This document shows positions 1 to 33,183 of a stretch of 34,670 nucleotides of DNA, one piece after another. Numbering within the stretch: the stretch's first letter is position 1; each line of letters starts with the position of its first letter. The stretch is from positions 1 to 34,670 of IMG/VR virus record IMGVR_UViG_3300021197_000148. The stretch is one strand, 5' to 3'. Origin of the DNA: a virus. The notes beneath the pieces are model-generated. The model did no database searches, had not been told where the DNA came from, and worked only from the letters and a program-made list of their open reading frames with translations. The position numbers and the translations under genes were made by a program.

Positions 1-720
1 AGCGTCCTGAACCTCGCCGTCTGATACGTCCAACGGCTGTGCCACATCATCGACCCGGCTGTAGGCCACGTTGCCATCGGCTGGGTTCATCAACGGATAC
101 CAGTCGATGTCTTTGCGGCGTTGCTCAAACTCTTCGACAGCCTGTGCAATGCGTGCCTGTACGCCAGCGTCAGCGTGGTACAGGAACATGCGCAAGGTAG
201 ACCCGCGATAGAGTACACACACCGCGCCCAAGCTTGCACCAGCGCACATCATCTGCGCCTGTAACTGTAGCACGCCGCGATGTGGTGGCGGCGCATCTTC
301 TGGCGCTGCCTGTGTTGTCTTGCATTCCAGCAATAATTTTTCGCCCGTTAGCTGGATTGCGTTTGCCGTGCCGGGGATGATGATGCCCTGCGCGTGGTCT
401 TCTTTTATGAGGCGCGTGCCTGTAGCCATGCCGTCCAGCGATGCTGCAAGGCGCAGCTTGTCATGGAAGAACGCTTGCGCGAAGTCGTTTTCGACATCGA
501 CAAGGCCAAGGCGGCGGGATGCTTCTGCAATAACTGCGCCTTCATGGATATCGCCCCAGCGTGTAAGCTCATTGCCTTCCCACGGCTCCGGCTCTTTGCC
601 AGCATCGCGGTCTATAAACTCTGACAGCAATTCGTTTTGCGTTGCGTATGGTGATTGGCCCATCAACTGCGCGATGCGCGAGGCTGATAGCATGTTGTCA
701 GGTGTAAGTTTTCCGACCAT
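1..720 (-). CDS. YqaJ-type phage exonuclease, N-terminal 240 residues (runs off left edge)
   Basis: This is a predicted double-strand DNA exonuclease of the PD-(D/E)xK superfamily (YqaJ / lambda Exo group), which resects DNA ends for phage recombination. The frame was read directly on the minus strand and is open to base 1. Visible core: LSASRIAQLMG near residues 11-21, WGDIHEG with Glu60, ASLDG with Asp96, LLLECKTT with the catalytic Glu132-x-Lys134 pair, and a following Gln-rich helix (QLQAQM, 152-157). The ATG at 720 is preceded by an AAGGG ribosome site 8 bases away, 13 bases after the GIY-YIG gene. The missing C-terminus appears in frame at the other end of the window (34422-34670), giving 322 residues in total. 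No RecT/Beta/Erf annealing partner is recognised. The fold call is strong; the exact substrate is inferred. Confidence 0.9.
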   Translation of the reverse strand, partial: MVGKLTPDNMLSASRIAQLMGQSPYATQNELLSEFIDRDAGKEPEPWEGNELTRWGDIHEGAVIAEASRRLGLVDVENDFAQAFFHDKLRLAASLDGMATGTRLIKEDHAQGIIIPGTANAIQLTGEKLLLECKTTQAAPEDAPPPHRGVLQLQAQMMCAGASLGAVCVLYRGSTLRMFLYHADAGVQARIAQAVEEFEQRRKDIDWYPLMNPADGNVAYSRVDDVAQPLDVSDGEVQDA

Positions 721-1830: not shown

Positions 1831-2454
1831 TTATGCGTTGATAAGATTACGCACGCTGGATGCGTGCCACTGACCGCCCATTGCGGTTGGTATCTGCTCT
1901 TCATTGAGAGCGGATGCGATGGCGCGTAGGCTCTGACCAGCCTTGCGCAATGCGTTGACAATAGGCATAGCTTGCGGCGCTACCTGTGCGGTGGCGCTGG
2001 CGCGTTGCTTGCCGGTAACTGAACCACCCTTTGCAGGGTCAGGTGAGCCGAGCTTTACGCCACGGCGCTTTGCTGCGGCTAGCGCTGCCTTGGTGCGCTC
2101 TGAGATGCGGCGGCCTTCCCATTCTGCAAAGACAGCGGCCATCTGTAGGAATGTGCGGTCTGCCTCTGGCATGTCGGCGCAAGTGATAGGCACGCCAGCT
2201 TCGAGCAAGCCGGTGATGAAGTGTACGTTACGCGCCAGACGGTCTAGCTTGGCAATAAGCAGTGTCGCGCCTATCTCTTTGGCGTGCGCCAATGCCTTGG
2301 CTAGCTCCGGGCGGTTGGACTTCTTGCCGCTTTCTACTTCTGTGTATTCAGCGACAATATCATAGTGCGCACAGGCGTGCTGTTGAGCCTCAAGGCCAAG
2401 GCCGGATTGGCCCTGACGCTGAGTTGATACGCGGTAATAGACGATGAATTTCAT
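1831..2454 (-). CDS. Small serine recombinase (resolvase/invertase family)
   Basis: A 207-residue site-specific recombinase that would cut and rejoin DNA through a phosphoserine link. Visible are YRVST with Arg8 and catalytic Ser10, the AKLDRLARN block (Asp71, Arg72, Arg75) and the long E-helix ending RRISERTKAAL (115-125). The C-terminal ~65 residues contain a helix-turn-helix-like stretch (SLRAIASALNEEQIP followed by GGQWHASSVRNLI). The protein resembles a family common on alphaproteobacterial chromosomes. It is much shorter than large phage serine integrases, so it may be a resolvase or invertase rather than an integrase. The ATG at 2454 overlaps the upstream stop by one base (TAATG), implying translational coupling. 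No att, res or inversion site could be assigned with confidence; the divergent region at 2713-2805 is the nearest candidate. Confidence 0.92.
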   Translation of the reverse strand: MKFIVYYRVSTQRQGQSGLGLEAQQHACAHYDIVAEYTEVESGKKSNRPELAKALAHAKEIGATLLIAKLDRLARNVHFITGLLEAGVPITCADMPEADRTFLQMAAVFAEWEGRRISERTKAALAAAKRRGVKLGSPDPAKGGSVTGKQRASATAQVAPQAMPIVNALRKAGQSLRAIASALNEEQIPTAMGGQWHASSVRNLINA

Positions 2455-2690
2455 TATGCTACTCCAAATTCTGCCTTGGCCTCTTCCATCATGTAGGCCA
2501 ATTCTTCTTGATATTCGTCAACGCGAGTTTGGTCATCGCCTGTAAGGCGTAGCTTCTGTGCTGGGGTCATCCAGATTTGGTGAACATCTAAATCTGTGTA
2601 GATGTCACCGTCTGCGTTGCGGCGGATGCCAGCAAACTCAGCGTCTGTATACTTAACTTCACGTTCCCAATTAATTTCTGTGTATGTCAT
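2454..2690 (-). CDS. Acidic 78-residue protein of unknown function
   Basis: First gene of the leftward operon. The ATG at 2690 follows an AAGGGAG ribosome site; an upstream in-frame start at 2717 would lie within the operator repeats and is less likely. The product has about 18 Asp/Glu against 8 Lys/Arg (net near -10), no membrane segment and no motif I recognise. Its stop overlaps the recombinase start (TAATG), so the two proteins are probably made in proportion. Because it is first after the divergent promoter it may be the most highly expressed leftward product. A small acidic protein could be an antirepressor, a recombination directionality partner or a DNA mimic, but nothing in the sequence decides this. 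Confidence 0.7.
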   Translation of the reverse strand: MTYTEINWEREVKYTDAEFAGIRRNADGDIYTDLDVHQIWMTPAQKLRLTGDDQTRVDEYQEELAYMMEEAKAEFGVA

Positions 2691-2712
2691 AATCTTAACT
2701 CCCTTTTGGTTA

Positions 2713-2740
2713 ATCAACTGACGGTCAACGTGCCGTCAAC
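2713..2740. promoter_or_regulatory. Three GTTGAC direct repeats at 11-base spacing (candidate operator)
   Basis: On the minus strand GTTGAC occurs at 2740-2735 and 2729-2724, and a near-copy (GTTGAT) at 2718-2713, an exact 11-base period (about one helical turn). The same segment contains an inverted pair TGACGG (2719-2724) / CCGTCA (2733-2738). It lies just downstream of the leftward -10 box, overlapping the predicted transcription start, where a bound repressor would block initiation. Binding by the adjacent ribbon-helix-helix protein is inferred. Confidence 0.55.
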
Positions 2741-2806: not shown

Positions 2807-3001
2807 ATGGCAAACACAAAACCAACATTATTGCGGCTCAGAACCAAGACAGTTTTGATGCTGAAAGAGGCGGTCGAGCAGTCGGCGCATCGCTCGATGG
2901 CGTCACTCGCTGACGAGATACTGGCGCAAGAATTAGAAAAGCGTTTGACCAAAGACGGGTCTGACCTAGACCGTGTGATAGCGGCGGCACGCAATGGTTA
3001 A
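2807..3001 (+). CDS. Ribbon-helix-helix (Arc/CopG-like) DNA-binding protein
   Basis: A 64-residue protein with the pattern of a ribbon-helix-helix regulator: a short strand (LLRLRTKTVL, residues 8-17), then two helices (LKEAVEQSAHRSMASLADEI and AQELEKRL) separated by the usual turn before Ser/Met-Ala-Ser. Such proteins act as dimers on operator pairs. It is the first rightward gene and faces the leftward operon across a 116-base gap rich in dyads, the classic arrangement for an autoregulating phage repressor. Its stop overlaps the start of the next gene by 8 bases. The fold is well supported by pattern; its role as a switch repressor is inference. Confidence 0.75.
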   Translation: MANTKPTLLRLRTKTVLMLKEAVEQSAHRSMASLADEILAQELEKRLTKDGSDLDRVIAAARNG

Positions 3002-3431
3002 TCCGCGCACGAAAGGAAGCCAGTACGAGCGCGATGTTCGCAAGCGCTTGCACCTAGAGCTTGGCCTTGAATTTCGCAGGGTGCTGGACCAATGGGCCGA
3101 GGCTGGCTTGCCTGACCTGACCTGTGAGGATGACGCTTTCCCCTTTGTAATAGAATGCAAACGCTACAGGCAGGGCAGCACGTTTGCCTCGCCCAGCCAT
3201 TGGGATCAGGTTTGCGTAGCAGCGGAGAAGGCTGGCAAGATACCAGCGCTGGTCTATAAATTCGATAGACTGCCGGAGCGTTGGCGCGTACCTATCGAGG
3301 CGCTGGCAATGCTGGCCACGTTTGAGCGACAGCCCGGCGATGGATATGATTGGAAGTACGCAGTCGAAATGACGTTTGACGATTTCTGTATGGTAGCAAG
3401 GGAGTTGATGTGCAATGAAACTAGCGAGTGA
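2994..3431 (+). CDS. PD-(D/E)xK nuclease, Holliday-junction-resolvase-like
   Basis: A 145-residue protein with the signature of small Holliday junction resolvase or VRR-type nucleases: NPRTKGSQYERDVRKRL at the N-terminus (Glu12), LPDLT with Asp41, and VIECKR with Glu54-x-Lys56. The C-terminal half has a WKYAVEMTFDDF segment of unknown role. It would cut branched replication or recombination intermediates before packaging, the job done by endonuclease I (gp3) in T7. The start overlaps the regulator gene by 8 bases, and the following small gene overlaps its end by 17, so this is a coupled early operon. Confidence 0.83.
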   Translation: MVNPRTKGSQYERDVRKRLHLELGLEFRRVLDQWAEAGLPDLTCEDDAFPFVIECKRYRQGSTFASPSHWDQVCVAAEKAGKIPALVYKFDRLPERWRVPIEALAMLATFERQPGDGYDWKYAVEMTFDDFCMVARELMCNETSE

Positions 3432-3660: not shown

Positions 3661-4278
3661 ATGGCACTTGGTTTAGTAAATGAAGGCGGCGGCGGTGGTA
3701 ACATCACGCCTATTATTAAGTTTGACGCAAAGGTGGGTGAGTTCTACCGGGTTGAAAGCGAGAACGTGAACGGCGAATGGGTGCGCGAGAGCATCGAGAT
3801 GGCGTTACCGTTCGAGGTCGCAATCGACATGGAAAATATCGAGGTCGGCTACATGGCGTTTGTCAGTAACCGCCCAGACTTCCACATGGTCAAGTTGGGT
3901 GAGCGCATGCCAGACAAGCCGACACCAGACCACAAGTCTGCGTTTCGTGTGAAGCTGGTAAACCGTGAGATAGGCTTGCGTGAGTTCAGTAGTCAGTCGA
4001 AGATGGTGCAGTCTGCGTTTGACCAGCTACACAATCAGTACGAGGCTGAACGCGCGAACAACCCCGGCCTGTGTCCTGTGATGAAGGTCACCGCGACACA
4101 GACCGCGACAGTTAACACACCGCAGGGCGAACAGCGCTTCAAGGTGCCGGTGTGGGAAATCAGCCAGTGGACAGAGCGTCCATCGGCATTTGATGGTGCG
4201 GAAGCACCTAGCGCACCGGCAGAAACGCCGGCTGCGCCTGTTGAACAGCCAGCAACGAGTGGCGCTGACCTGTTCTAG
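3661..4278 (+). CDS. Putative single-stranded-DNA-binding protein
   Basis: A 205-residue protein that I assign as SSB-like from architecture and context rather than a firm family match. After a glycine-rich start (GGGGGNITPIIKFDAKVGEF) comes a mixed body rich in beta-type segments (about 15-180). Then follows a low-complexity Ala/Pro/Glu linker (about 180-198) and a short C-terminal tip ending GADLF. A flexible linker with an acidic-hydrophobic tip ending in Phe is the layout of bacterial SSB and T7 gp2.5, where the tip recruits replication partners. The gene stands directly before the primase-helicase, from which it is separated by a 14-base-pair hairpin. It could alternatively be the annealing partner of the YqaJ exonuclease, which otherwise lacks one. 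Confidence 0.55.
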   Translation: MALGLVNEGGGGGNITPIIKFDAKVGEFYRVESENVNGEWVRESIEMALPFEVAIDMENIEVGYMAFVSNRPDFHMVKLGERMPDKPTPDHKSAFRVKLVNREIGLREFSSQSKMVQSAFDQLHNQYEAERANNPGLCPVMKVTATQTATVNTPQGEQRFKVPVWEISQWTERPSAFDGAEAPSAPAETPAAPVEQPATSGADLF

Positions 4279-4283
4279 CAGTT

Positions 4284-4325
4284 TGGTGGGGCGTTGGGTT
4301 TCCTCCCTTTGCCAATGCCCCACCA
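4284..4325 (+). terminator. 14-base-pair intergenic hairpin without a U tract
   Basis: The arms 4284-4297 and 4312-4325 are complementary over 14 pairs (one G-U), around a 14-base loop. The stem is G/C-rich, with the core GGTGGGGC / GCCCCACC. It lies wholly between the SSB-like gene and the ribosome site of the primase-helicase. There is no run of T after it, so it is not a canonical intrinsic terminator. It may attenuate transcription, be a processing site, or protect the upstream mRNA end so that more SSB-like protein than helicase is made. Confidence 0.6.
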
Positions 4326-4350
4326 TTTACCAAGGGGAAGAGGGAATAAG

Positions 4351-6156
4351 ATGACACAGAACATAGCAGCATACATACAGCAGATAGCCACCTACTACTG
4401 GGGCGAACCAAAGGAAAAGCGCGGCCATGAACTGCGCTGGGGCAATCACGGGTCGCGCAGTGTAGACTTGCGCAAAGGCACATGGTTTGACTTCGAGGCT
4501 AACGAAGGTGGCGGGGTCATAGACATGGTGCGCATCAATGAGGGCGCCCAGCTACGCAGTCTGCCGGACATATTAGAAAAGCAATTCGGCATAGCCAAGC
4601 AAGTGCAGCAAACCATTCAGCCGGCGCGGTACATGTCAAAGGCATACGATTATATAGATGAGCATGGCGAGTGCATCTATCAGGTTGTCAGATACGAGCC
4701 AAAGACATTCCGGCAGCGCAGACCTGACGGCAAGGGCGGCTGGATATGGAACATTAAGGACGTGGCCCCGGTGCCGTACAATCTACCGGGCATCATGGCA
4801 GACAAAGACGCCGCAATATGGGTGGTGGAAGGCGAGAAGTGTGCGCAGCTACTTATCAAGCAGGGCTTCGTTGCGACCACCAACCACGGCGGCGCAAAGA
4901 ACTGGTCGGCGGGTCTAAATAAATGGTTTGCCGGGCGTAACGTGATTGTGTTGCCTGACGCCGATGCGGCTGGCACACGCCACGCTGAAGTGGTGGTATC
5001 AAATTTATACCCTGTGGCAAAGGCGGTGAAGCTGGTAACCATACCGGGGCTGACAGATAAGCAAGACGTTTATGATTGGATGGTCGCTGGCGGTACGCGT
5101 GACCGTCTGGCTAAGATAGCTGCCGCGACCCCGGTGCTGTCGGACGCCCCGGACGTACAGGATAACGTACAAGAAGAGCGCCCAGACGTGTTTGATGTGT
5201 ATGATGTACACTATCTGCGCAACATGCCGCCGGTGGAATGGCTGGTTGATGGACTGCTAACCAAGCATGGGTTTAGCGTGCTGTACGGTGAGCCGGGGGC
5301 TGGTAAATCATTCCTAGCGATAGACATGGCGCTGTCGGTGGCTTATGGCAAGGCGTGGCACAACAACCCAGTGCAGAAAGGCGCAGTGCTGTACATCGCT
5401 GGCGAGGGTGTTGGCGGTCTGGGTAAGCGCATCAAGGCATGGCAAGCGCATCACAAGCTAACAGCGGATGTGCCGTTTTATGTTCTACCCACAGCGGTGA
5501 GGTTCCGCGAACCTGAAGATGTGGAGCGCCTACTGCGCACGATAGATAACCTAGATACCAAGTTTAGCGCGGTGTTTGTGGATACTGTAGCACGCGCCCT
5601 GCTCGGCGGTGATGAGAACAGCGCAACGGACATGGGCCTGTTTGTGGATGCGTGTGAGATAGTAAAGCGCCACTGCGAATGTGCGGTGGTGGCCATTCAC
5701 CATTCTGGCAAGGATGCGGCCAGAGGCATGCGTGGGTCTACGGCGCTGTTGGGGGCGGTGGATACAAGCATCAAGGTGAGCAAGCTGGAAGAGACGGTGA
5801 CGCTGGCGACAGAGAAGCAGAAGGACGCGGAGCCAATGCCAGACGTAGCGTTTACGATGACGCCGGTGGCGCTGATAGATGATGTGAGCGTGGTGATGAC
5901 ACAGGCTGACATGCCAGAGAAGAAGGCGCGTAGTGCGAAGCTGACAGAGCCGCAGAAGATAGCCCTGCAAGCGCTGCGTAATCTGTCTGTCGAATTAGGC
6001 CAAGAGCGCGTGCCGGTGACGGCGTGGCACGACAAACACCGTGCGAAAACACCCGATTCGACCCGTTCTAGGCGCAGAGATGCGAGGGATGCGTTACAGA
6101 CAAAGCGTGCGATTGTTATAGAAGGTAGCTATGTGTGGGAATACAAAGAGTTATAA
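4351..6156 (+). CDS. TOPRIM primase / RepA-type hexameric helicase
   Basis: A 601-residue bifunctional replication protein. An N-terminal region with TWFDFEANEGGGVIDMV (44-60) is typical of phage primase-helicases. It is followed by a TOPRIM domain with WVVEGEK (Glu160) and VLPDADAAG (Asp203, Asp205). The C-terminal motor has Walker A GEPGAGKS (313-320), Walker B AVFVD (407-411) and a VAIHHSGKD motif (447-455), as in RepA/DnaB-like (AAA_25) helicases. The ATG at 4351 is chosen because it follows AGGGGAAGAGGG, although the frame extends 19 codons upstream into the hairpin. With no DNA polymerase in the genome this is the central replication protein, presumably loading and priming for the host replisome. 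No zinc-binding primase motif is visible. Confidence 0.9.
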   Translation: MTQNIAAYIQQIATYYWGEPKEKRGHELRWGNHGSRSVDLRKGTWFDFEANEGGGVIDMVRINEGAQLRSLPDILEKQFGIAKQVQQTIQPARYMSKAYDYIDEHGECIYQVVRYEPKTFRQRRPDGKGGWIWNIKDVAPVPYNLPGIMADKDAAIWVVEGEKCAQLLIKQGFVATTNHGGAKNWSAGLNKWFAGRNVIVLPDADAAGTRHAEVVVSNLYPVAKAVKLVTIPGLTDKQDVYDWMVAGGTRDRLAKIAAATPVLSDAPDVQDNVQEERPDVFDVYDVHYLRNMPPVEWLVDGLLTKHGFSVLYGEPGAGKSFLAIDMALSVAYGKAWHNNPVQKGAVLYIAGEGVGGLGKRIKAWQAHHKLTADVPFYVLPTAVRFREPEDVERLLRTIDNLDTKFSAVFVDTVARALLGGDENSATDMGLFVDACEIVKRHCECAVVAIHHSGKDAARGMRGSTALLGAVDTSIKVSKLEETVTLATEKQKDAEPMPDVAFTMTPVALIDDVSVVMTQADMPEKKARSAKLTEPQKIALQALRNLSVELGQERVPVTAWHDKHRAKTPDSTRSRRRDARDALQTKRAIVIEGSYVWEYKEL

Positions 6157-6864: not shown

Positions 6865-7519
6865 GAATAAGCGCCCGTACAGTGTCATGCCAATGCGTGC
6901 CTTTGCAGACCGTAAGCTCAAAGAACGCGAGATAAGGGTGCTAGGAGCGCTGTGTGCGTTCGTGAACCGTGCTGGGGTGTGTTACCCTAGTATGGAAACA
7001 CTTACGCATGTGTGCGGCTATGGTGAGCGTAAAACCATATATGACGCAGTGAAGGGATTAAAGCAACGTGGTTATGTGCGCCAGCTTAATCCAAAGGACT
7101 ATCAGGTAGGCGTTAGCGGGTGGAAAACAAACAGGTATCAAGTGCTGTGGAAAGGTGACGAAGCCCTGCCATCGCAAGAGGACATACTCACTGCCAAAGC
7201 GTTGCAAGTGCGTGCAGACCAAGATGACAACCTCACAGAAGATAAAGGGGGTCTGGGGGATGCACAATCAGTCGGTGACGCGCACGCTGGAGAGCTATGC
7301 CATGCCTATCTGCGTGCCGTCCAACAGGCGACAGGACAGGTGAGGCTGTACGATAATGAGATAGCGCACGCACGCCGGCTGGCATTGCGTGAGGTATCGG
7401 CTGACGATGTACGCGCTGCCACGCTGGCTGTGTGTGACCAAGCAATAGAACGAAGGGCAGGGGTGCCTGCGCTAGCAGATATCGTGCGGTACTTTGATGT
7501 ACAGGAGAACAAAGGTTGA
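6845..7519 (+). CDS. Winged-helix replication-initiator-like protein
   Basis: A 224-residue protein with an N-terminal winged helix-turn-helix (about 20-85: LKEREIRVLGALCAFVNRAG, CYPSMETLTHVCGYGERKTIYDAVKGLKQRGYV), the pattern of phage O-like replication proteins and HTH_36 domains. The C-terminal third (about 140-220) is helical and contains LRLYDNEIAHARRLALREVSADD-like sequence with no catalytic motif. Family members bind origin DNA or recruit helicase. Here the gene follows the primase-helicase and the SSB-tip protein and is followed by a GC-rich gap, so an initiator role is reasonable. The ATG at 6845 has AAAGGA 9 bases upstream and lies within the end of the previous gene. A transcriptional regulator is the alternative. 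Confidence 0.72.
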   Translation: MTKSLSENKRPYSVMPMRAFADRKLKEREIRVLGALCAFVNRAGVCYPSMETLTHVCGYGERKTIYDAVKGLKQRGYVRQLNPKDYQVGVSGWKTNRYQVLWKGDEALPSQEDILTAKALQVRADQDDNLTEDKGGLGDAQSVGDAHAGELCHAYLRAVQQATGQVRLYDNEIAHARRLALREVSADDVRAATLAVCDQAIERRAGVPALADIVRYFDVQENKG

Positions 7520-7645
7520 TTTGCTTTTGTACAGCGCAAGCGTTGGTCACACATAAGCCGCCGGCCACAGAGGCGACCCCTTGCCCCCCGCCCCCGGCCA
7601 GTAGTCTATGGGGGTCTCGCACAAAATTTTCCAAGGAACTGACGC
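7520..7645. other. Non-coding GC-rich gap with C-tracts (G-rich on minus strand)
   Basis: This 126-base gap follows the initiator-like gene. It contains three C runs (7577-7580, 7584-7589, 7591-7595), a GGGGG run at 7610-7614, and a GCCGCCGGCC block. The minus strand could form G-rich structure, and CCCCC/GGGGG could pair over a 14-base loop. No gene, promoter or terminator is evident. It is a second candidate origin region. Confidence 0.4.
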
Positions 7646-8036: not shown

Positions 8037-8305
8037 AGATTGTGGATATATTAGACGAGGCTAAAGGCGCGGTCGCCGACCGTGGGAAGAATTACGGCAA
8101 CGTATACATCAACCATGAGCGCATAGCCGCGCAGTGGTCGATTACGTTGGGTGTTGAGGTCACTGCCGAACAGGTGGCCATGATGATGGTGCAAGTAAAG
8201 CTAGCGCGGCTGATGGAGACGCCTGACCACATGGATAGCTGGGTAGATATCGCTGGGTACGCGTGGACAGGGGGCAAGTGTGTCCAAGAAGCCCCTGACA
8301 ACTAG
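8033..8305 (+). CDS. DUF6378-like protein
   Basis: A 90-residue protein starting at GTG 8033, which overlaps the previous stop in GTGA and has GGAG 8 bases upstream. It matches the pattern of a widespread phage family (DUF6378 as I recall it): ILDEAKGAVADRGKNYGNV, then RIAAQW, then EQVAMMMVQVKLARL, then DSWVDIAGYA. These proteins look mostly helical and resemble the all-alpha NTP pyrophosphatase (MazG-like) layout. The activity is not established, and the acidic metal residues of MazG are not clearly complete here. It sits directly before the small terminase. Confidence 0.72.
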   Translation: MKIVDILDEAKGAVADRGKNYGNVYINHERIAAQWSITLGVEVTAEQVAMMMVQVKLARLMETPDHMDSWVDIAGYAWTGGKCVQEAPDN

Positions 8306-8693
8306 GCAGCAGCGTGCGGCGCTAGCTAGCCAAGACACCGACCGGCGCGAGGCGGTGGTGCAAGAGCTAGAGGCTATCGCGGCTGGTGAGGCCACGGATG
8401 TCATTAGCTGGGATGCTATGGGTCAGGTGCAGCTTACGCCATCTGACCAACTGCCGGAACGCGCCAAGCGCAGTATCAAGAAGGTGAAGGTAACGCCCAA
8501 CCAGCACGGCAACACCATCGAGGTGGAGATGCACGACAAGTTGGCAGCGTTGCGCTTGCTTGCAAAGCATCGTGGTTTGTTGGAGCCTAACAGTGACGAC
8601 CAGCGGCCAAGCATGATCGGCATTAACGTGACCGGGCCTAAAACGACAACGTATGAGGTGAAGGATGTCAGTGACGAAGATGACGCACAATAA
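8280..8693 (+). CDS. terS: Terminase small subunit
   Basis: A 137-residue DNA-recognition subunit of the packaging motor. The region LPERAKRSIKKVKVTPN (about 59-75) followed by TIEVEMHDKLAALRLLAKHRGLL (79-101) is the signature of small terminase proteins that mark phage DNA for cutting. The C-terminus is acidic (VSDEDDAQ). The GTG at 8280 lies 26 bases inside the DUF6378-like gene. The stop codon is in the loop of an intrinsic terminator. The large subunit follows after one small Cys-rich gene, the usual pairing. Confidence 0.85.
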   Translation: MSKKPLTTRQQRAALASQDTDRREAVVQELEAIAAGEATDVISWDAMGQVQLTPSDQLPERAKRSIKKVKVTPNQHGNTIEVEMHDKLAALRLLAKHRGLLEPNSDDQRPSMIGINVTGPKTTTYEVKDVSDEDDAQ

Positions 8694-8898
8694 TTTTGTG
8701 CGTTTTTTTTATGATTACGTTATATGCGACCATTGCGGTGAGGACACGCGTGGCCGGTGCTATGCGGAGACGCAGCGCGTGGTTTGTTCTAAGTGCAAGG
8801 GTGTGCTGTTGGAAGTCGATGACGAGATAGAAGACCCGACAGACGGCATGGTAATTGTGACATTTATCCCGGAGTTTGATAATGGCGAGAGCGAGTAG
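8665..8898 (+). CDS. Small zinc-ribbon protein, 77 residues
   Basis: Two CxxC pairs (CDHC at about 21-24 and CSKC at about 41-44) flank an Arg-rich turn and predict a zinc ribbon; the C-terminus is acidic (EVDDEIEDPTDG, then FDNGESE). Possible starts are ATG 8665 (after GGTGAAGG), ATG 8680 and GTG 8698. The first two lie before or inside an intrinsic terminator, so the hairpin would form within the message. The end overlaps the large terminase by 17 bases. It could help the terminase subunits or bind nucleic acid; this is not known. Confidence 0.65.
   Translation: MSVTKMTHNNFVRFFYDYVICDHCGEDTRGRCYAETQRVVCSKCKGVLLEVDDEIEDPTDGMVIVTFIPEFDNGESE
8684..8710 (+). terminator. Intrinsic terminator at the end of the early/terS block
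   Basis: CGCACAA (8684-8690), a 5-base loop holding the terS stop codon, TTGTGCG (8696-8702), then eight T (8703-8710). This is a textbook Rho-independent terminator, but it sits inside the first codons of the following small gene. Read-through or antitermination would be needed to express the late genes from the early promoter unless a downstream promoter exists. Confidence 0.85.
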
Positions 8899-10432
8899 AG
8901 CGACAGACAGGTCGAGGCGCAGAACAAAGCAACCGACCACGGAGGTGCTGAATGGCCTTAACTTAGATTTTAGCGAAAGTCCGACCGTATGGGATTTTTT
9001 AAACGACAATTCTTTTGTGCGGGGTCTACTTGGGCCAGTAGGCTCTGGAAAGACATATGCCTCGCTGGCCGAGGTGATGCTTCGTGCTGTAAAGCAACCA
9101 CCTTCGCCTGTGGACAATGTAAGATATACGCGTTTTGCCGTAATCAGAAACAGCTATCCCGAACTGCGCACAACGACCATTAAGACGTGGCAAGAGATAT
9201 TCCCAGAAAACACTTGGGGGCAGATGCGCTGGTCGCCGCCTATCACGCACCACATTAAGTTGCCACCGCGTGACGGCACGCCGGGGCTTGATTGCGAGGT
9301 TATCTTTTTAGCGCTCGACCAGCCCAAAGACGTGCGCAAGCTGTTGTCGCTGGAACTGACCGGCGGCTTTATTGACGAGGCGCGAGAGTTGCCCAAGGCG
9401 GTGGTCGATGGCCTTACATCGCGTGTCGGTCGTTACCCGACCAAGCGCCACGGCGGTTGCCCTTGGCGTGGTGTGTGGATGTCTACCAACCCTATGGACA
9501 GCGACCACTGGTGGCCAAACCTAGCGGAGAAAAACCCTATTCGTGGCAAGTACCCGTGGAAGTTCTACAAACAACCCGGCGGCGTTATCGAGGCTACCAA
9601 GGAACATGAAGGCAATATCTTTGCCGCTAACAAATATTGGATCAACAACCCGAAGGCAGAAAACGTAAACAACTTGCCCGGCGGGTATTACGAACAGCAG
9701 CTTGCCGGCAAGACGTTGGACTGGATACAGTGCTACGCTGGTGCGCAATACGTTTATGTGCAAGATGGGAAATCTGTGTGGCCTGAGTTTAGCGATAGCT
9801 TGATGTCCGGCGATGTTGAGATTGAGCCAGCTTGGCCTGTGCATATCGGGCTTGACTTTGGTTTGACCCCTGCCGCCGTGTTTGGGCAAAAGATGGCTAA
9901 CGGACGCTGGCATGTTGTGCATGAGCTTGTGGCGTTTGACATGGGCCTAGAGCGTTTCTGTCATCACCTGATGGCTGACATAAATACGCGCTTTCCTAAG
10001 AGCGAGGTGTTTATCTGGGGCGACCCGGCTGGCGCAAAGCGTGATGAGATATTCGAGGTAACAGCGTTTGAGCATATGCGCACGCTTGGCTTACGCGCAC
10101 AGCCTACCGCGTCAAACGACTTTATGGTGCGCCGTGAGGCTGGTGCTGCGCCAATGAACCGGCTGATAGACGGCAAACCCGGCATTATTGTAGACCGTAG
10201 CTGCATGCGCACGCGCAAGTCGCTAGCTGGTGGTTATCACTTTAAGCGCGTTGCGATGGGTGGCGGTCAGGAGCGGTTCAAGGATGCGCCGAACAAGAAC
10301 GAGCATTCGCACGTTGGTGATGCTTACGGCTATCTGATGATGGGGTCTGAGCATCGCAAGCTAACGCGCAACAGCCATGCAAGCGGCCAGTTTAAACAGA
10401 TGACAGCCAAGATGGACTTCGATGTTTTCTAG
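8882..10432 (+). CDS. terL: Terminase large subunit
   Basis: A 516-residue ATP-driven packaging motor and nuclease. The ATPase half shows Walker A GPVGSGKT (51-58) and Walker B GFIDEA (Asp165, Glu166), with a WMSTNP coupling motif near 200. The nuclease half has an RNase-H-like triad: GLDFG (Asp325), WGDPAG (Asp381) and HVGDAYGY (Asp480). ATG 8882 is preferred over TTG 8876 because CCGGAG lies 7 bases upstream. The last codons overlap the next gene by 11 bases. It heads the late operon together with terS. The T7-type portal and tail genes suggest a podovirus; whether packaging is headful or site-specific cannot be read here. Confidence 0.96.
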   Translation: MARASRATDRSRRRTKQPTTEVLNGLNLDFSESPTVWDFLNDNSFVRGLLGPVGSGKTYASLAEVMLRAVKQPPSPVDNVRYTRFAVIRNSYPELRTTTIKTWQEIFPENTWGQMRWSPPITHHIKLPPRDGTPGLDCEVIFLALDQPKDVRKLLSLELTGGFIDEARELPKAVVDGLTSRVGRYPTKRHGGCPWRGVWMSTNPMDSDHWWPNLAEKNPIRGKYPWKFYKQPGGVIEATKEHEGNIFAANKYWINNPKAENVNNLPGGYYEQQLAGKTLDWIQCYAGAQYVYVQDGKSVWPEFSDSLMSGDVEIEPAWPVHIGLDFGLTPAAVFGQKMANGRWHVVHELVAFDMGLERFCHHLMADINTRFPKSEVFIWGDPAGAKRDEIFEVTAFEHMRTLGLRAQPTASNDFMVRREAGAAPMNRLIDGKPGIIVDRSCMRTRKSLAGGYHFKRVAMGGGQERFKDAPNKNEHSHVGDAYGYLMMGSEHRKLTRNSHASGQFKQMTAKMDFDVF

Positions 10433-11791: not shown

Positions 11792-12041
11792 GAACCCCAA
11801 GGGCGGTTTGAGCGAGGCCGGACGCAAGCACTTTGAGCGCAAAGAGGGCGGCAATCTAAAACGCCCAGTTAAGTCTGGCACAAACCCGCGCCGCGTATCA
11901 TTTGCCGCACGCTTTGCTGGCATGAAGGGCGCGGAGAAGAAGGATGGCAAGCCAACGCGTCTTGGGCTGGCATTAAGGGCATGGGGCTTTGGCTCTAAAG
12001 AAGCAGCGCGTAACTTTGCGAATAGGCACAAAAAATCATGA
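11775..12041 (+). CDS. DUF6321-like small basic protein, 88 residues
   Basis: Starts at GTG 11775, 17 bases inside the previous gene. The motifs NPKGGLSEAGRKHF (near 7-20), LKRPVKSGTNPRRVSFAARFAGMKG (about 28-52) and PTRLGLALRAWGFGSKEAARNFA match a small protein family (DUF6321 as I recall it) that recurs beside portal genes in marine podoviruses. The repeated Arg/Lys and Gly turns suggest nucleic-acid binding. It ends within the portal start (4-base overlap, ATGA). The family is recognised with moderate confidence; function is unknown. Confidence 0.72.
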   Translation: MRKVHKNPKGGLSEAGRKHFERKEGGNLKRPVKSGTNPRRVSFAARFAGMKGAEKKDGKPTRLGLALRAWGFGSKEAARNFANRHKKS

Positions 12042-13579
12042 TGACCCCACAGCAGATATTGAAGCGCCACGACTTGGCACAACGCCGCAAGGATAACTGG
12101 CGGCAGATCTACGAAGATTGCTACGAGTTCGCGCTACCACAGCGCAACTTGTATGACGGCTATTATGAAGGCGGCGGGTCACCCGGCCAAAACAAAATGG
12201 CGCGCGTGTTTGATAGCACCGCTATCAATTCCACGCAGCGCTTTGCCAACCGTATTCAGTCTGGCTTATTCCCGCCACAATCTAACTGGTGCCGCCTAGA
12301 GCCGGGGCCAGACATTCCTATAGAGCGCCGTATTGAAGCACAGGCCGCGTTAGATATTTACAGCGACAAGATGTTTGCGCTGTTGCGGCAAACTAATTTT
12401 GATTTGTCTATGGGTGAGTTTCTCATGGACTTAGCAGTTGGTACGGCGGTGATGCTTATCCAACCCGGTGATGACATCACTCCCATCCGGTTCACCGCCG
12501 TGCCTCAATATCTGGTGTGTATCGAGGAAGGCGCGCACGGCAAGGTCGATAACGTCTATCGCCGTATGCGCATGAAGGCAGAAGCTATTACGCAACACTG
12601 GGATGACGCGGAGATATCAGCCAAGCTACAGCGTATGATTGACGACAAGCCTACCGAAGAGATAGAGCTAGTCGAGGCTACTTGCTTAGACTTAGACACG
12701 GGCGAATACAATTATTATGTTATCGAGAAAGAAGGCAAGGAAGCCATCGTAGAGCGCACCATGAAGTCTAGCCCTTGGGTTGTAGCGCGTTATATGAAGG
12801 TAGCCGGTGAGGTGTATGGGCGTGGCCCACTGGTCACCGCTATCGCTGACATTAAGACGCTGAACAAAACGCTAGAGCTATTGCTGAAAAACGCTAGCCT
12901 GTCTATCGCTGGTGTATATACAGCAGCAGATGATGGCGTGCTAAACCCGCAGACTATACGCATTGCGCCGGGTGCTATTATCCCGGTTGCGCGTAACGGT
13001 GGGCCACAGGGTGAGAGCTTGCGCATGTTGCCGCGTTCTGGTGACTTTAACGTGTCGCAGATTATTATCAACGACCTACGCATGAATATTAAAAAGATTA
13101 TGATGGACGACACGCTACCGCCAGACAATATGTCTGCCCGGTCAGCCACAGAGGTGTCGGCAAAGATATCTGAGCTAGCCAGCAATATGGGCAGTTCGTT
13201 TGGTCGTCTAATCACAGAAACCATGATCCCGGTTGTCTCCCGCATTCTTGCGGTGATGGATGAGCGCGGAATGATTGAAATGCCGCTAAAGGTAAACGGG
13301 CTAGAGGTTAAGGTGCAGCCGGTGTCGCCTATCGCGCAAGCGCAGAACATGGGCGGCATTGAGAAGATAATGCAATGGGTGCAGTTATCCGCATCACTTG
13401 GCCAAGATGGCCAAATGGCAGTGCGCACTGGCGCTATTGCAGACCATGTGGCTGACAAGATGGGCATACCGGCAGAGCTACGCACTTCACCAGAAGAGCG
13501 CCAACAGATGGCAGAGCAGATGGCGCAGATGCAAGCGGCGCAGATGGCGATGCAAGCCGGGCAAGCAATAGAGGAATAG
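12038..13579 (+). CDS. Portal (T7-type head-tail connector)
   Basis: A 513-residue portal, the dodecameric ring at the packaging vertex, of the T7 gp8 / head-to-tail-connecting family (T7 gp8 is 536). Diagnostic stretches are the N-terminal RRKDNWRQIYEDCYEFALPQRN, DSTAINSTQRFANRIQSGLFPP (about 59-80), a central KTLNKTLELLLKNASLSIAG and a long Met/Gln-rich C-terminal helix (QQMAEQMAQMQAAQMAMQAG) that forms the barrel. ATG 12038 and ATG 12041 are both possible starts. It precedes the Bbp19-like, scaffold and capsid genes, the usual order. Confidence 0.95.
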   Translation: MMTPQQILKRHDLAQRRKDNWRQIYEDCYEFALPQRNLYDGYYEGGGSPGQNKMARVFDSTAINSTQRFANRIQSGLFPPQSNWCRLEPGPDIPIERRIEAQAALDIYSDKMFALLRQTNFDLSMGEFLMDLAVGTAVMLIQPGDDITPIRFTAVPQYLVCIEEGAHGKVDNVYRRMRMKAEAITQHWDDAEISAKLQRMIDDKPTEEIELVEATCLDLDTGEYNYYVIEKEGKEAIVERTMKSSPWVVARYMKVAGEVYGRGPLVTAIADIKTLNKTLELLLKNASLSIAGVYTAADDGVLNPQTIRIAPGAIIPVARNGGPQGESLRMLPRSGDFNVSQIIINDLRMNIKKIMMDDTLPPDNMSARSATEVSAKISELASNMGSSFGRLITETMIPVVSRILAVMDERGMIEMPLKVNGLEVKVQPVSPIAQAQNMGGIEKIMQWVQLSASLGQDGQMAVRTGAIADHVADKMGIPAELRTSPEERQQMAEQMAQMQAAQMAMQAGQAIEE

Positions 13580-13580
13580 C

Positions 13581-13850
13581 ATGATTGAAGAGGGTTGGGA
13601 TAGCTTGCGGACAGTAGAGCCGCAAGCACGTTTGACACAGCAAGATAACCAAGACGACATAGACAGGTTATATTTGCGCGTGTACGGCAGTGAGGATGGG
13701 CAACAATTACTAACACACCTTCGCTCACTGACGATTGAGCAGCCCACTTGGTATCCGGGGGAAGATGCTTCTCACGGGTTTGCCAGAGAGGGTCAAAATT
13801 CACTAGTGCGTGAAATAGAAAAGCGCATGTTGAGAGCGAGGCAATTATGA
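13581..13850 (+). CDS. Bbp19-like small phage protein, 89 residues
   Basis: The pattern LYLRVYGSEDGQQLLTHL (about 30-47) followed by FAREGQNSLVREIEKRM (68-84) fits a family of small proteins (Bbp19 type) found between portal and scaffold/capsid genes in podoviruses. The function is not established; the location points to head assembly. The ATG at 13581 has GAGGA 5 bases upstream, and the end overlaps the scaffold start (ATGA). Confidence 0.7.
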   Translation: MIEEGWDSLRTVEPQARLTQQDNQDDIDRLYLRVYGSEDGQQLLTHLRSLTIEQPTWYPGEDASHGFAREGQNSLVREIEKRMLRARQL

Positions 13851-14650
13851 ACGAACCAGATGGACTGATGGCCCAAGCGCAAGTTGAGGCAGAGGATAAC
13901 CAGCAGCCGGAAGAAAGCACAATCTCCCACATCCAGCCAGAGGCAGGGCCAGCATCGTTAGACGATGTTACTGTTGCTAATGAGGATGAAGAGGTAGAGT
14001 TTGCGAAGCCCGAATGGTATCCAGATAAATTTTGGAATGAGGACGATGGGCCTGACCTAGAAAACTTGGTCAAGTCCTACAACGAACTGCAAAAGAAGTT
14101 TTCGCAGGGCAAGCACAAAGCCCCGGAGGCGTATGATGATAAGTTATTTAAAGATGCAAGCATCCCTGACGATGACCCGCTTCTCTCGACATATCGAGAT
14201 TGGGCGAAGGAAAATGGTATTAGCCAGAGTGCGTTTGACGAGTTGGCGAATAGCTTTATTTCTATGGCACAACAGGAAGAAGAGGGCGCTGAAATCTCTT
14301 ATCAGGAAGAGCTTACAAAGCTTGGCCCGAATGCTGATGCGACTATTAAGTCGATGACAGATTGGGCGCAGGGTTTGGTGCGCAAGGGTGTTTGGTCAGA
14401 AGGTGACTTTGAAGAGTTTAAGATTATGGGCGGCACCGCGCAGGGTCTAAAGGCTTTGCAGAAAGTGCGCAGTTACTACGGCGACCGCCCTATTCCTGTA
14501 GACATGACCCCTGTAGATGGCGCGCCGTCTAAAGAGGAATTGAATGCAATGGTAGGCAAACCAGAGTACCAGACTGACCCAGCTTTCCGGGCAAAAGTCG
14601 AAAAGATGTTCGAGCGTGCTTATGGCACGCAAGACTATTCTGCTATCTAA
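13847..14650 (+). CDS. Capsid scaffolding protein (T7 gp9-like)
   Basis: A 267-residue acidic, mostly helical protein placed directly before the major capsid gene. The first ~60 residues are low complexity and rich in Glu/Asp/Gln. Then comes a recognisable PEWYPDKFWNEDDGPDLENLVKSYNELQKKF segment (about 55-85) typical of T7-type scaffolds, and the last part (PEYQTDPAFRAKVEKMFERAYG) is a helical capsid-binding-type tail. It directs procapsid assembly and leaves before or during DNA entry. T7 gp9 is 307 residues. A strong terminator follows the stop within 30 bases. Confidence 0.88.
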   Translation: MNEPDGLMAQAQVEAEDNQQPEESTISHIQPEAGPASLDDVTVANEDEEVEFAKPEWYPDKFWNEDDGPDLENLVKSYNELQKKFSQGKHKAPEAYDDKLFKDASIPDDDPLLSTYRDWAKENGISQSAFDELANSFISMAQQEEEGAEISYQEELTKLGPNADATIKSMTDWAQGLVRKGVWSEGDFEEFKIMGGTAQGLKALQKVRSYYGDRPIPVDMTPVDGAPSKEELNAMVGKPEYQTDPAFRAKVEKMFERAYGTQDYSAI

Positions 14651-14826: not shown

Positions 14827-15660
14827 ATGGCAGTAGCTATTTCTAACGCCTTCGTGCAAATGTTCGATGCGGAAGTTAAGCAGGCTTATCAGGGCGCACG
14901 CTCTTTGGCCGGCGTTATCCGCGAGCGGACAAATGTAGAAGGCTCACAGGTAAAGTTCCCTAAAATTGGGAAAGGCACCGCAACAATCCGCGTACCACAG
15001 ACAGATGTAACCCCATTGAATGTCAGCTACTCACAAGTAACTGCAACAATGAGCGACTACATTGCTGCTGAGTACAGCGACATCTTCAACCAGCAAAAAG
15101 TAAACTTTGACGAGCGGCGTGAGCTAGTTCAAGTCGTGTCTGGGGCCATTGGCAGACGAATGGACCAGCTAGTCATTGACGCGCTGAACGCAGCATCCTC
15201 ACCATCAACAGTTGCTACAACAGTTGGTGGCGCTGGTACAAACATGAACCTTGCAAAGTTGCTTGCAGCTAAGAAGGCGCTTGACACAAAGAACGTGCCA
15301 GCCGAAGGTCGTTGCATGGTAATCCACGCAAACGGTTTGTCAGCATTGCTAGATGAAACAGAATTGACAAGCAGCGATTTCGCTACAGTCAAAGCTCTTT
15401 CTACTGGCGAAATCGACACTTTCTTGGGCTTCAAGTTCATTACCCTTGGTGACCGTGATGAAGGTGGCTTGCCGCTTCCATCAACACGCACATGCTTCGC
15501 ATTCCACCGCGATGCAATCGGCATGGGCATTGGCATGGGTCAGCGTAGTGAGATAAATTACGTCCCAGAGAAAACGTCTTTCCTTGTCTCTTCAATGTTC
15601 TCCGCTGGAGCCATTGCGATTGACGATGAAGGCATTGTCAAAATCTCAGCGACAGAGTAA
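14827..15660 (+). CDS. Major capsid protein
   Basis: A 277-residue shell protein, shorter than T7 gp10A (345). It starts with FVQMFDAEVKQAYQGARSLAGVIRERT (about 9-35), then KFPKIGKGTATIRVPQ, then LNVSYSQVTATMSDYIAAEYSDIFNQQKVNFDERRELVQVVSGAIGRRMDQLVIDAL (about 64-122). This is the spine-helix region of HK97-fold capsids of T7-like marine podoviruses, and ends with a beta-rich domain (FLVSSMFSAGAIAIDDEGIVKI). A GAGAGGA ribosome site precedes the ATG at 14827. The gene and the next one are bracketed by terminators, indicating a separate high-level transcript. Codon choice is cleaner than in flanking genes, as expected for a highly expressed product. Confidence 0.93.
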   Translation: MAVAISNAFVQMFDAEVKQAYQGARSLAGVIRERTNVEGSQVKFPKIGKGTATIRVPQTDVTPLNVSYSQVTATMSDYIAAEYSDIFNQQKVNFDERRELVQVVSGAIGRRMDQLVIDALNAASSPSTVATTVGGAGTNMNLAKLLAAKKALDTKNVPAEGRCMVIHANGLSALLDETELTSSDFATVKALSTGEIDTFLGFKFITLGDRDEGGLPLPSTRTCFAFHRDAIGMGIGMGQRSEINYVPEKTSFLVSSMFSAGAIAIDDEGIVKISATE

Positions 15661-16000: not shown

Positions 16001-16615
16001 ATGGCTGCTGGCGATACAAAACTATCTATCTGTTCTGATGCGCTCATTATGTTGGGCGCTAATCCTTTATCTAGCTTCACTGTTGGAACAGATGATGCGC
16101 AAGTGGCCGACCGATTATATGACGATGTGCGCGACACATTGCTTATGCAGTACGCCTATAGCTGGTCAATTAAAAAAGTAAAGCTAGCGCAGCTAGTGCA
16201 AACCCCCATAAACGAATGGAAGTATATCTATGCGTTGCCGGGCAATCTGCTTGGCAATCCAAAGGCCGTGTTTAACGTGGGCGCTGTAGGCGCACAGCCG
16301 CGCCGCGACTTTGAGATATACGGCGATGGCCTAAACACAAACTATGAGCAAGTTTGGATCGACTACCAATATCGCCCAGAGCCGTTTGAGTTCCCGCCTT
16401 ACTTTGTGCGCTTGTTAAAGACAGCGCTAGCGGCAGAGTTTGCAGAGCCGGTAACAGACCAGATTACAAAGGCAGACTATTTTCATAGCCGCGCCTACGG
16501 GTCGCCAGCGGAGAACATGCGCGGCGGTTTGGTGCGTGTGGCTATTAACATTGACGGCGCAGACAGGCCAGCGCAAACGATACAGGAATTTCCTATCTCT
16601 GACGTAAGGTTCTAG
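16001..16615 (+). CDS. Tail tubular protein A (T7 gp11-like adaptor)
   Basis: A 204-residue head-tail adaptor (T7 gp11 is 196). Recognised by LSICSDALIMLGANPLSSF (about 8-26), RLYDDVRDTLLMQYAYSWSIKKVKLA (38-63), WKYIYALPGN and the C-terminal ALAAEFAEPVTDQ stretch. It forms the ring between portal and nozzle. GGAG precedes the ATG. It is followed one base after its stop by the nozzle gene, and together they form the tail tube of a podovirus. Confidence 0.93.
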   Translation: MAAGDTKLSICSDALIMLGANPLSSFTVGTDDAQVADRLYDDVRDTLLMQYAYSWSIKKVKLAQLVQTPINEWKYIYALPGNLLGNPKAVFNVGAVGAQPRRDFEIYGDGLNTNYEQVWIDYQYRPEPFEFPPYFVRLLKTALAAEFAEPVTDQITKADYFHSRAYGSPAENMRGGLVRVAINIDGADRPAQTIQEFPISDVRF

Positions 16616-16616
16616 A

Positions 16617-18647
16617 ATGAGCCGGATTATACAAATACAAAATGATTTTACGTCTGGCGAGATAGACCCAAAGCTTCGCGCGCGCACAGACATTAGCCAG
16701 TACAAGTCAGCGCTAACCACAGCGCAGAACGTGTCTATCCAACCACAAGGCGGCGCAGTACGGCGTGACGGCACTAAGTTTGTGCATGAGCTAGACGCTG
16801 GCGCGGCTAATGCCGTGCGCATGGTTGGGTTTGAGTTTAGCGTTAGCGATAGCTATATGCTGGTGTTTACGCCCGGCAAGATGTACGTCTATAAAAATCG
16901 CACGCTGGTCACAGCAATTAACGGCGGCGCAGACGACTTCCTAACGGTGTCATCGCTGACTTCCGCTATTCTGCCTGAGATGAACTGGGTGCAATCTGCC
17001 GACACCGTAATTGTGGTGCATGAAGATTTAGCCCCGATAAAGATTGTGCGCGGCGCAACAGATAGCGACTGGACAGCCAGCACTATTAGCTTTGACTTCG
17101 TACCAAAGCACGCATTTTCTTTGACTGTTACAGCCGGGTCAAGTTTTAACACTGGCACGCCGCACGACCACCTAGAGGTCAGCGGCACATCAGGCAACAT
17201 TACTGTGACTGCAAAACACAGCGGGTCGGATGCAAATATATTTACATCAGGTGCGGCGGCGTCAGGCAGCTATGTTGGGCAGTACATAAACGTCACGCCT
17301 TTCGGGCGGTTGCGCATTGTTCGCAAGGTTAGCGATGCGAAGTTAGAGTGCTTTGCAGAGGTGCCGCTGTTCGACACCGGCAACATTGATGACGCCGATT
17401 GGGAGCTTGAAGAGGGCTATGAGAACACATGGTCTGCGTCTAGAGGCTGGCCGCGCAGTGTAGTATTCCATGAAGGCCGTTTATACTTTGGCGGCTCGAA
17501 GCAGCGCCCGTCTACCATCTGGGGTAGCCGCGTTGCTGACTTCTTTAACTTCGACCCCGGCGAAGCGCTAGACGATGCGTCTGTTGAGGCTAGCTTAGAC
17601 ACAGGAACTTTCAACGCGATTGTCGATATGTACGCCGGGCGTAACTTGCAGATATTCACAACTGGCGGCGAGTTCTATGTGCCACAAGCGCTGGATGACC
17701 CTATCACCCCAGCTAACCTTATTGTAAAGGCGCAGACATTTTTTGGTATGAAGCCGGGCTTGCGCGTGCAGAACGTGGACGGTGCCACGCTATTTATCCA
17801 ACGGCAGGGGAAGGCCATTCAAGAGTTTATCTTTAGTGATACGGTGAACGCATACACATCAGACAAGATATCTTTGCTATCATCGCATTTGTTAAAGTCG
17901 CCAGAAGAAATGGCGGTGCGCGTTGCCACATCCACAGACGAGGGCGACCGGCTGATGCTGGTTAATGGTGATGATGGGTCTATCGCCTGTTACACGCTAC
18001 TGCGCAGTCAGAACGTGATTGCGCCATCTGAGTGGACAACCGAGGGCGAGTTTATAAATATTGGCGTGGATGTTGATGACATCTATGTAGTGGTAAAGCG
18101 CAGCGTAAACAGCGCTGACGTTTACTATGTAGAAGTGTTTGACCCTGATACCCTGCTAGATAGCGCGGTGACAGGCGGTGCGGCGTCATCTGTCAACATG
18201 CCGCATTTAGAGGCCGAGACTGTGCAGATTATTCGTGACGGCGTTGTAGAGCCGACACAGGTGGTCGGTGCATCGCCGTCTACTGTGACGTTTGTGTCAG
18301 CGGCGACTGCTAGCTTTCAGGTAGGGCTAAACTTTACGCCAACGATGAAAACATTGCCGGTTGAGCCAAACTTGCCTAGCGGGTCGTTAAAAGGATTTAA
18401 GAAACGCATCTTTGAAGTAAACGCAGAATTGTTTGAAACGCAGTCTTTGTCTATTAACGGGTCGCTGATACCGTTTCGCAGTTTTGGCACAAATGTGTTA
18501 AACTCATCCGTGCAAGAGTTTACAGGCATCAAGACGATTAATGGCATGCTTGGCTATAGCTATGATGGTCAGATAACAGTAACCCAAGATGTACCGCTGA
18601 AAATGTCAGTGTTGGGCATCGAGTACAAAGTGAGCATAGGGCAGTAA
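16617..18647 (+). CDS. Tail tubular protein B (T7 gp12-like nozzle)
   Basis: A 676-residue tail nozzle (T7 gp12 is 794). Signature regions: IQNDFTSGEIDPKLRARTDISQYKSALTTAQNVSIQPQGGAVRRDGTKFV (near 5-55), GYENTWSASRGWPRSVVFHEGRLYFGGSKQRPSTIWGSRVADFFNF (about 268-313) and QRQGKAIQEFIFSD (about 396-409). It forms the hexameric exit tube on which fibres dock. The C-terminal portion is beta-rich. The ATG is one base after the tail tubular A stop. Well supported. Confidence 0.95.
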   Translation: MSRIIQIQNDFTSGEIDPKLRARTDISQYKSALTTAQNVSIQPQGGAVRRDGTKFVHELDAGAANAVRMVGFEFSVSDSYMLVFTPGKMYVYKNRTLVTAINGGADDFLTVSSLTSAILPEMNWVQSADTVIVVHEDLAPIKIVRGATDSDWTASTISFDFVPKHAFSLTVTAGSSFNTGTPHDHLEVSGTSGNITVTAKHSGSDANIFTSGAAASGSYVGQYINVTPFGRLRIVRKVSDAKLECFAEVPLFDTGNIDDADWELEEGYENTWSASRGWPRSVVFHEGRLYFGGSKQRPSTIWGSRVADFFNFDPGEALDDASVEASLDTGTFNAIVDMYAGRNLQIFTTGGEFYVPQALDDPITPANLIVKAQTFFGMKPGLRVQNVDGATLFIQRQGKAIQEFIFSDTVNAYTSDKISLLSSHLLKSPEEMAVRVATSTDEGDRLMLVNGDDGSIACYTLLRSQNVIAPSEWTTEGEFINIGVDVDDIYVVVKRSVNSADVYYVEVFDPDTLLDSAVTGGAASSVNMPHLEAETVQIIRDGVVEPTQVVGASPSTVTFVSAATASFQVGLNFTPTMKTLPVEPNLPSGSLKGFKKRIFEVNAELFETQSLSINGSLIPFRSFGTNVLNSSVQEFTGIKTINGMLGYSYDGQITVTQDVPLKMSVLGIEYKVSIGQ

Positions 18648-18648
18648 T

Positions 18649-19197
18649 ATGGCACAGGTTGCAGTACCAATGGCAATATCCGCTGTAAGCGGTATGGCTG
18701 AAATGAAAGCGGCAAAAGCACAAGCGGGCGGTTTGCAAGCGCAAGCAACATTAACGCGCATGCAAGGCAGGCAAGAGGCTTTAAAGTATAAAAAGCAGGG
18801 GCTATCTGTTTTAGATAATATACTTGCTACATCTGCGTCTATTAACGCTAGAGCCGGTGCTGGCAATATAGACCCTAACAGCGGCAGCGCTATGGCTTTA
18901 AAAAGATATGCGCAAGCAAAAGGCGCTGATGAATATTATATGTCTAGAGAAGGCCAAATCATAACAATGCGCCAAGCCGAGTTGCAGGCGCTTGAATATG
19001 GGAAGCAAGCAAAAGCCGTCATGAAAGCCGCACAGTTTAAAGCTATTGCAAATATCGCTATGGCTGGATACCAAGGCAGTTTGTTGGGCGGCGCACCATC
19101 AGGCGGCATGACGCCAACAACATTCCAACAAGCGGCATCAGCGCAAGTTCAAGGGGCTGGCGGTATTTATGACCCGTTGGCACCGGGCGGGTTTTAG
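18649..19197 (+). CDS. Internal virion protein, T7 gp14-like
   Basis: A 182-residue Ala/Gln/Met-rich protein located exactly where T7 gp14 (196) lies, directly after the nozzle. It starts with a hydrophobic Ala/Gly segment (VAVPMAISAVSGMAEM) and contains a helical INARAGAGNIDPNSGSAMALKRYAQAKGADEYYMSREGQI region (about 64-104), which recurs in gp14-like ejection proteins. gp14 forms the outer-membrane part of the ejection channel. The C-terminal QAASAQVQGAGGIYDPLAPGGF tail is low complexity. Confidence 0.78.
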   Translation: MAQVAVPMAISAVSGMAEMKAAKAQAGGLQAQATLTRMQGRQEALKYKKQGLSVLDNILATSASINARAGAGNIDPNSGSAMALKRYAQAKGADEYYMSREGQIITMRQAELQALEYGKQAKAVMKAAQFKAIANIAMAGYQGSLLGGAPSGGMTPTTFQQAASAQVQGAGGIYDPLAPGGF

Positions 19198-19207
19198 GTA
19201 GGTTAGT

Positions 19208-23262: not shown

Positions 23263-23392
23263 ACCGGGGCTTGAGGGCGAAAGCCAAGAGTTTATTAAAT
23301 TTGCTGAAAGCATGACACCAGAAAAAACTAAGGTGTTAGCTGAAAGGCTTGTGCAGCTTTACAAGGAACAGCGAACAGATGTCGATACCTAA
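23234..23392 (+). CDS. Hidden 52-residue gene bridging two ejection-protein genes
   Basis: A short frame with ATG 23234 and an AGAGGG ribosome site overlaps the end of the 761-residue gene by 29 bases and the start of the 1072-residue gene by 14, covering what would otherwise be a 116-base gap. The product is acidic at first (LQDSPEPGLEGESQEF) and ends in an amphipathic helix (TPEKTKVLAERLVQLYKEQR). The overlap on both sides and the helix pattern support a real gene, perhaps a small ejection or assembly partner. No family is recognised. Confidence 0.6.
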   Translation: MSATLQDSPEPGLEGESQEFIKFAESMTPEKTKVLAERLVQLYKEQRTDVDT

Positions 23393-28218: not shown

Positions 28219-28226
28219 GAGTTGCC

Positions 28227-31610: not shown

Positions 31611-31619
31611 GAGATAGAC

Positions 31620-32764: not shown

Positions 32765-33183
32765 TGTCTGGTGAAACAAGGACAGGGCTGATAGGTGAAC
32801 ACATCGCTTGCGCCACAGTGTTGAGCATGCCGGGCATAATGGGCGCGGCTATGGCGCAGCAAGATAAGATAGACCTGCTGGCGTGGGATGATGTCGGCTA
32901 TCTGCGGATCCAAGTAAAGTCGCGCAACATACTGCCAGAGGCTGACGGGCGCACGCCGTCCTATCATTTTAACTATGGCATGGGGCTAACTAAAAAAAAG
33001 GCAGAGCGCGGTTCGTATGATATAATAGCGTCAGTAGCTATTGACCGGCGCAAGGTAATATTCACCGCGCTGGACTGTGTCGGCACAGTGAGCAAGCGCA
33101 TTAGAGCGCGCCGGTTTGACGACCCGGACGTTGAGATAGATAGCTGGCGACATGCGCTGGCGGTTGTGAGAGGTGACATATGA
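32764..33183 (+). CDS. PD-(D/E)xK nuclease-like protein in the lysis cassette
   Basis: A 139-residue protein starting at GTG 32764. It has TGLIGEHIACATVL (Glu12), KIDLLAW (Asp37) and LRIQVKSR (Gln50-x-Lys52), the order and spacing of a PD-(D/E)xK core in which the middle acidic residue is replaced by Gln, as in several small resolvase-like families. The following PSYHFNYGMGLTKKKAERGSYDIIASVAIDRRKVIF is also typical of them. It is distinct from the nuclease at 2994. Expressed late, it may resolve DNA branches before packaging or attack host DNA. The overlap with the endolysin (ATGA) indicates coupling. Confidence 0.75.
   Translation: MSGETRTGLIGEHIACATVLSMPGIMGAAMAQQDKIDLLAWDDVGYLRIQVKSRNILPEADGRTPSYHFNYGMGLTKKKAERGSYDIIASVAIDRRKVIFTALDCVGTVSKRIRARRFDDPDVEIDSWRHALAVVRGDI

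Follow-up and report, generated by a model that had tools for sequence, protein, structure and literature searches.

A 34,670-bp marine podovirus record as an almost certainly complete circular-map genome opened within its YqaJ/RecE-type exonuclease gene

Introduction

Methylophilales phage MEP301 (MW452941), a cultured phage from the Bohai Sea, was assembled as one circular contig of 34,774 bp, and the same circular-map inference as is drawn here, with the same ambiguity, has already been published for it (PMC8024684). MEP301 was reported to be without DNA and RNA polymerase (PMC8024684). Pelagibacter phage EXVC031P Hodr (OQ414635), 34.2 kb in length, was also deposited as circular. The stretch of DNA analysed in this study, hereafter the window, spans the whole of one virus record (34,670 bp). 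A circular map of this kind is compatible with headful permutation, with terminal repeats collapsed in assembly or with a real circle.

The record is distantly related to MEP301. The large terminase subunits (TerL) of the two are 65% identical, the podoviral head and tail modules are the same and a recombinase gene adjoins the YqaJ gene in both. In contrast, the YqaJ proteins are only 34% identical, the G+C content is 40% in MEP301 against 51% in the record, and MEP301 has no GIY-YIG gene at the slot where the record carries one. Directly downstream of YqaJ, MEP301 has an ERF-family gene, whereas the record has a gene for a helix-turn-helix (HTH) protein. Phage Hodr, with a TerL 43% identical to that of the record, differs in belonging to another host group and in having no YqaJ match at E 1e-5. 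The record is ordinary for an assembled virus genome: a new phage of a known type of marine podovirus.

Results

The following features were assigned in the window (coordinates, strand, product and basis).

1-720, minus: YqaJ/RecE-like exonuclease, N-terminal 240 codons with the PD-(D/E)XK nuclease core (Pfam YqaJ PF09588, E=2.3e-12, residues 10-162)
734-1696, minus: GIY-YIG endonuclease with C-terminal HTH/NUMOD-like repeats (Pfam GIY-YIG, E=4.1e-9)
1831-2454, minus: small serine recombinase of resolvase/invertase type, 207 aa (Pfam Resolvase, E=1.4e-27; PHROG DNA invertase, E=1.4e-34)
2994-3431, plus: RusA-like/PDDEXK_15 Holliday junction nuclease (family matches)
3661-4278, plus: putative single-strand DNA binding protein (position and acidic tail; conserved in relatives; no family match)
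4294-6156, plus: primase/helicase, AAA_25 (profile matches)
8280-8693, plus: terminase small subunit (Pfam Terminase_2, E=4.1e-10; PHROG 51)
8876-10432, plus: terminase large subunit, TerL (PHROG 2, E=1.3e-25)
12038-13579, plus: portal/head-tail adaptor (PHROG 332, E=1.2e-91)
13847-14650, plus: head assembly (scaffold) protein (PHROG 1052)
14827-15660, plus: major capsid protein (PHROG 3437, E=1.7e-57)
16001-18647, plus: tail tubular proteins A and B, two genes (PHROG 394 and 376)
18649-26597, plus: internal virion (ejection) protein cassette (PHROG 6651 for 23349-26597; the other genes by position)
26641-32168, plus: tail fibre genes and a putative fibre assembly gene (profile matches)
33180-33551, plus: M15 peptidase endolysin (profile matches)
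34211-34435, minus: LexA/MarR-type winged-helix protein, directly downstream of the nuclease (Pfam LexA_DNA_bind, E=1e-6)
34422-34670, minus: YqaJ/RecE-like exonuclease, C-terminal 82 codons and stop, in-phase continuation of the first entry (PHROG 434; contiguous in 16 relatives)

A replication-initiator-like HTH protein is also encoded.

Joining the two ends of the record in silico produces a minus-strand gene of 322 codons plus stop across the 34670/1 joint. Its ATG lies at 718-720 and the frame stays open to base 1 (240 codons); it resumes in phase at base 34670 and runs for 82 more codons to a TAG stop at 34422-34424, just as an earlier note on this DNA, made from the sequence alone, had read it. 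By itself, this continuity is weak evidence for closure and not decisive, since 15% of random segments of the coding-dense window stay open for at least 82 codons.

The Pfam YqaJ model scored 47.8 bits on the nuclease against a gathering cut-off of 22, and the profile of PHROG 434 (RecE-like exonuclease) covers residues 10-288, spanning the joint at 240|241. Taken by itself, the 82-residue piece matches PHROG 434 positions 279-323 (E=3.9e-5), which agrees with the proposal of the earlier note that it is the C-terminal arm of the same family; both the nuclease core and the arm of YqaJ/RecE-like phage exonucleases are thus matched here. A search of solved structures with the joined protein returned no match. 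The joined protein is encoded at 90-97% identity in 16 environmental virus contigs from different metagenomes (own record excluded), 15 of which align along the entire protein or with a single residue left out; at about 50% identity over residues 1-319, it is encoded in dozens of further contigs. The end-to-end alignment that had been proposed as a check of the joined 322-residue protein was accordingly obtained with these relatives.

At the DNA level, 16 related contigs cross the joint, each in a single unbroken blastn match (80-93% identity, the longest 3.8 kb). Bases 1 and 34670 are adjacent in these relatives, with 0 bases missing or duplicated. Of 25 DNA alignments that spanned the joint by at least 60 nt per side, only one showed an indel 30 nt or less away from it, and 37-40 of the 40 residues around the joint are identical in close relatives. 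The crossing contigs include near-copies (for example L012/L013 and L015/L016/L028), and by our estimate the independent lineages among them number fewer than 16, perhaps about 10. As far as such comparisons reach, the relatives make the joint certain, the closure of the individual assembly being drawn from other phages.

No exact terminal repeat of at least 8 bases was found at the record ends, and the record thus lacks the terminal direct repeat of at least 20 bp that CheckV takes as a sufficient but not a necessary criterion. It ends exactly where it begins, like a trimmed or already closed circle.

Long collinear matches also covered the sequence away from the joint. Collinearity with the relative G009 starts at window position 14752, descends to 1, passes the joint and continues to 16804; the approximately 2 kb left over fall within long collinear matches of G006, G008 and G012. 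Gene order around the circle is kept in close relatives, and the differences are limited to accessory segments. DNA matches to the compared relatives are missing from six variable-gene stretches of 0.4-1.1 kb, located in the GIY-YIG slot (627-1739) and within the tail fibre genes (27.3-31.4 kb); the genes on either side are the same. The module set and the length are as in the relatives. Related complete or near-complete records measure 33,410 bp (G017), 33,721 bp (G008), 34,301 bp (G006) and 34,774 bp (MEP301), and the closed relatives, at 33.4-34.8 kb, match the length of the record. In G008 the ends repeat exactly over 123 bp and the cut lies at about 7505-7632 of the window; in G017, whose ends overlap by 128 bp at 99%, the cut falls inside the terminase. 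Such differing cut points among related closed records are as expected from the arbitrary opening of a circle. The nearest relatives are not of the same species, since their nuclease proteins differ by approximately 3-10%.

The ORFs scanned, with small ORFs partly covered, yielded no recognisable DNA polymerase, RNA polymerase, tyrosine integrase or annealing protein. The window contained no tRNA genes and no convincing long repeats or inverted repeats that would mark an invertible segment. An 87-aa ORF at 2454-2717 (minus strand) has no counterpart in any compared relative and is probably no gene, or one specific to the record.

Discussion

The joint is exact, and the circle that it closes is fully equipped with genes for replication, packaging, head, tail and lysis. 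The window is almost certainly the complete circular-map genome, 34,670 bp long, of an uncultured marine podovirus, opened at an arbitrary point in a YqaJ/RecE-type gene; a cut made by the assembler or the database is the best explanation of this opening. The earlier note had proposed just such a whole genome, and the exact DNA crossing, the gene set and the length shared with closed relatives bear the proposal out. Its corollary, that the absence of genes can be interpreted, holds as well: as the record is whole, statements on absent genes carry weight. For practical purposes, relatives that cross the joint can show the closure of a record that has no terminal repeats.

Circularity is shown here for the map only. 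The record could also be imagined as a linear fragment whose two ends happen to fall into one gene while the sequence between them is missing, and the lack of a terminal repeat and the 15% chance rate of an open frame would fit this. The uninterrupted protein and the absence of any missing base at the joint in the relatives, together with a length equal to that of closed relatives, make such a coincidence extremely improbable. Neither does a true plasmid-like prophage, persisting in cells as a circle with the small serine recombinase acting as a multimer resolvase in place of an integrase, appear at all likely. It would account for the circular map and for the resolvase/invertase-type gene at 1831-2454, but plasmid records contained no TerL relative above 35% identity (two reached about 34%), the TerL relatives in 84,980 species genomes were two only, both on metagenome-bin contigs, and the ORFs scanned included no recognisable partition gene. 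Of the forms of circularity that the earlier note had allowed, circular permutation, collapsed terminal repeats and a plasmid-like molecule, the first two are the likelier ones and the last found no support.

The virion DNA would then be linear, either circularly permuted and terminally redundant or bearing fixed terminal repeats that collapsed in assembly. We lean towards headful packaging, that is, permuted DNA with terminal redundancy. Fixed direct terminal repeats of the T7 type, collapsed into a circle by assembly, the physical end lying at another site of the genome, are possible but less probable. Genomes with such repeats likewise assemble as circles, and two relatives are closed by repeats, of 123 bp (G008) and 128 bp (G017), although end repeats of set lengths often stem from assembler word sizes (CheckV paper, PMC8116208). 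Against fixed ends, the contig ends of the relatives are not piled up: at most 3 fell within 20 bp and 4 within 50 bp, as for uniform ends, and no clustering beyond chance was found at 20-100 bp. A weak excess of contig ends near 14.6 kb, seen in windows of 200-500 bp, probably reflects sampling around the capsid anchor. A T7-like mode may also be disfavoured by TerL of the record, for which neither pairwise nor profile searches detected any similarity to T7 TerL. It likewise showed none to lambda TerL and only a marginal one to TerL of the headful phage Sf6, and the TerL tree had long branches and did not separate the packaging classes.

Under the preferred headful form as well as with fixed repeats, injected DNA may circularise or form concatemers, partly by means of the recombination genes that adjoin the joint. 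Going by what is known of the family, the YqaJ exonuclease would resect 5' ends, so that terminally redundant DNA could recombine into circles or concatemers. YqaJ-type exonucleases are usually paired with a single-strand annealing partner. Here, in contrast, no recognisable annealing protein stands beside the nuclease; because the next gene encodes the LexA/MarR-type HTH protein, the partner may be an unrecognised protein of this genome or may come from the host.

The non-coding stretch at 7520-7640, upstream of the terminase genes, is rich in C/G runs, and G008 is cut exactly there, with its 123-bp end repeat. This stretch may be a packaging site, or a run at which assembly breaks.

Neither an integrated prophage nor a plasmid copy was found in the species-genome collection and the plasmid records. 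One contig of an Opitutae metagenome bin (L356, CAKZOI010000014.1), 34,477 bp and thus of phage-genome length, encodes a TerL 85% identical to that of the record; it is probably a phage genome that was binned wrongly and no prophage.

The ORF in the slot between the serine recombinase and YqaJ genes differs among relatives. GIY-YIG genes occupy it in the window and in L015/L016 (L015 4820-5773; 38% identical), proteins matching endonuclease VII/HNH PHROGs are encoded there in L003 (9300-10001) and L006 (9462-10001), and similar-looking ORFs occur in L018 (3936-4691) and L024 (9315-9998). L012 has an unrelated small ORF (9607-9876) and in MEP301 the slot is empty. The pattern suggests that competing putative homing endonucleases land at this site. 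Two DNA methylase genes of relatives are absent from the record: a C5-cytosine methylase gene (product approximately 282 aa), which L003 and L015, for example, carry at window position 3599, and an N6/N4 methylase gene (product approximately 215 aa), which directly follows YqaJ (window 34418-34435) in L010 and L012.

The ejection cassette (18649-26597) is 95-100% identical to that of G009 (L354), and its gene at 19208-20977 is common to the window and L355. In other relatives, some of them with a TerL 96% identical, the identity of the three large ejection proteins mostly drops to 23-36% and extends over no more than part of their length, a difference that we read as a probable wholesale module swap.
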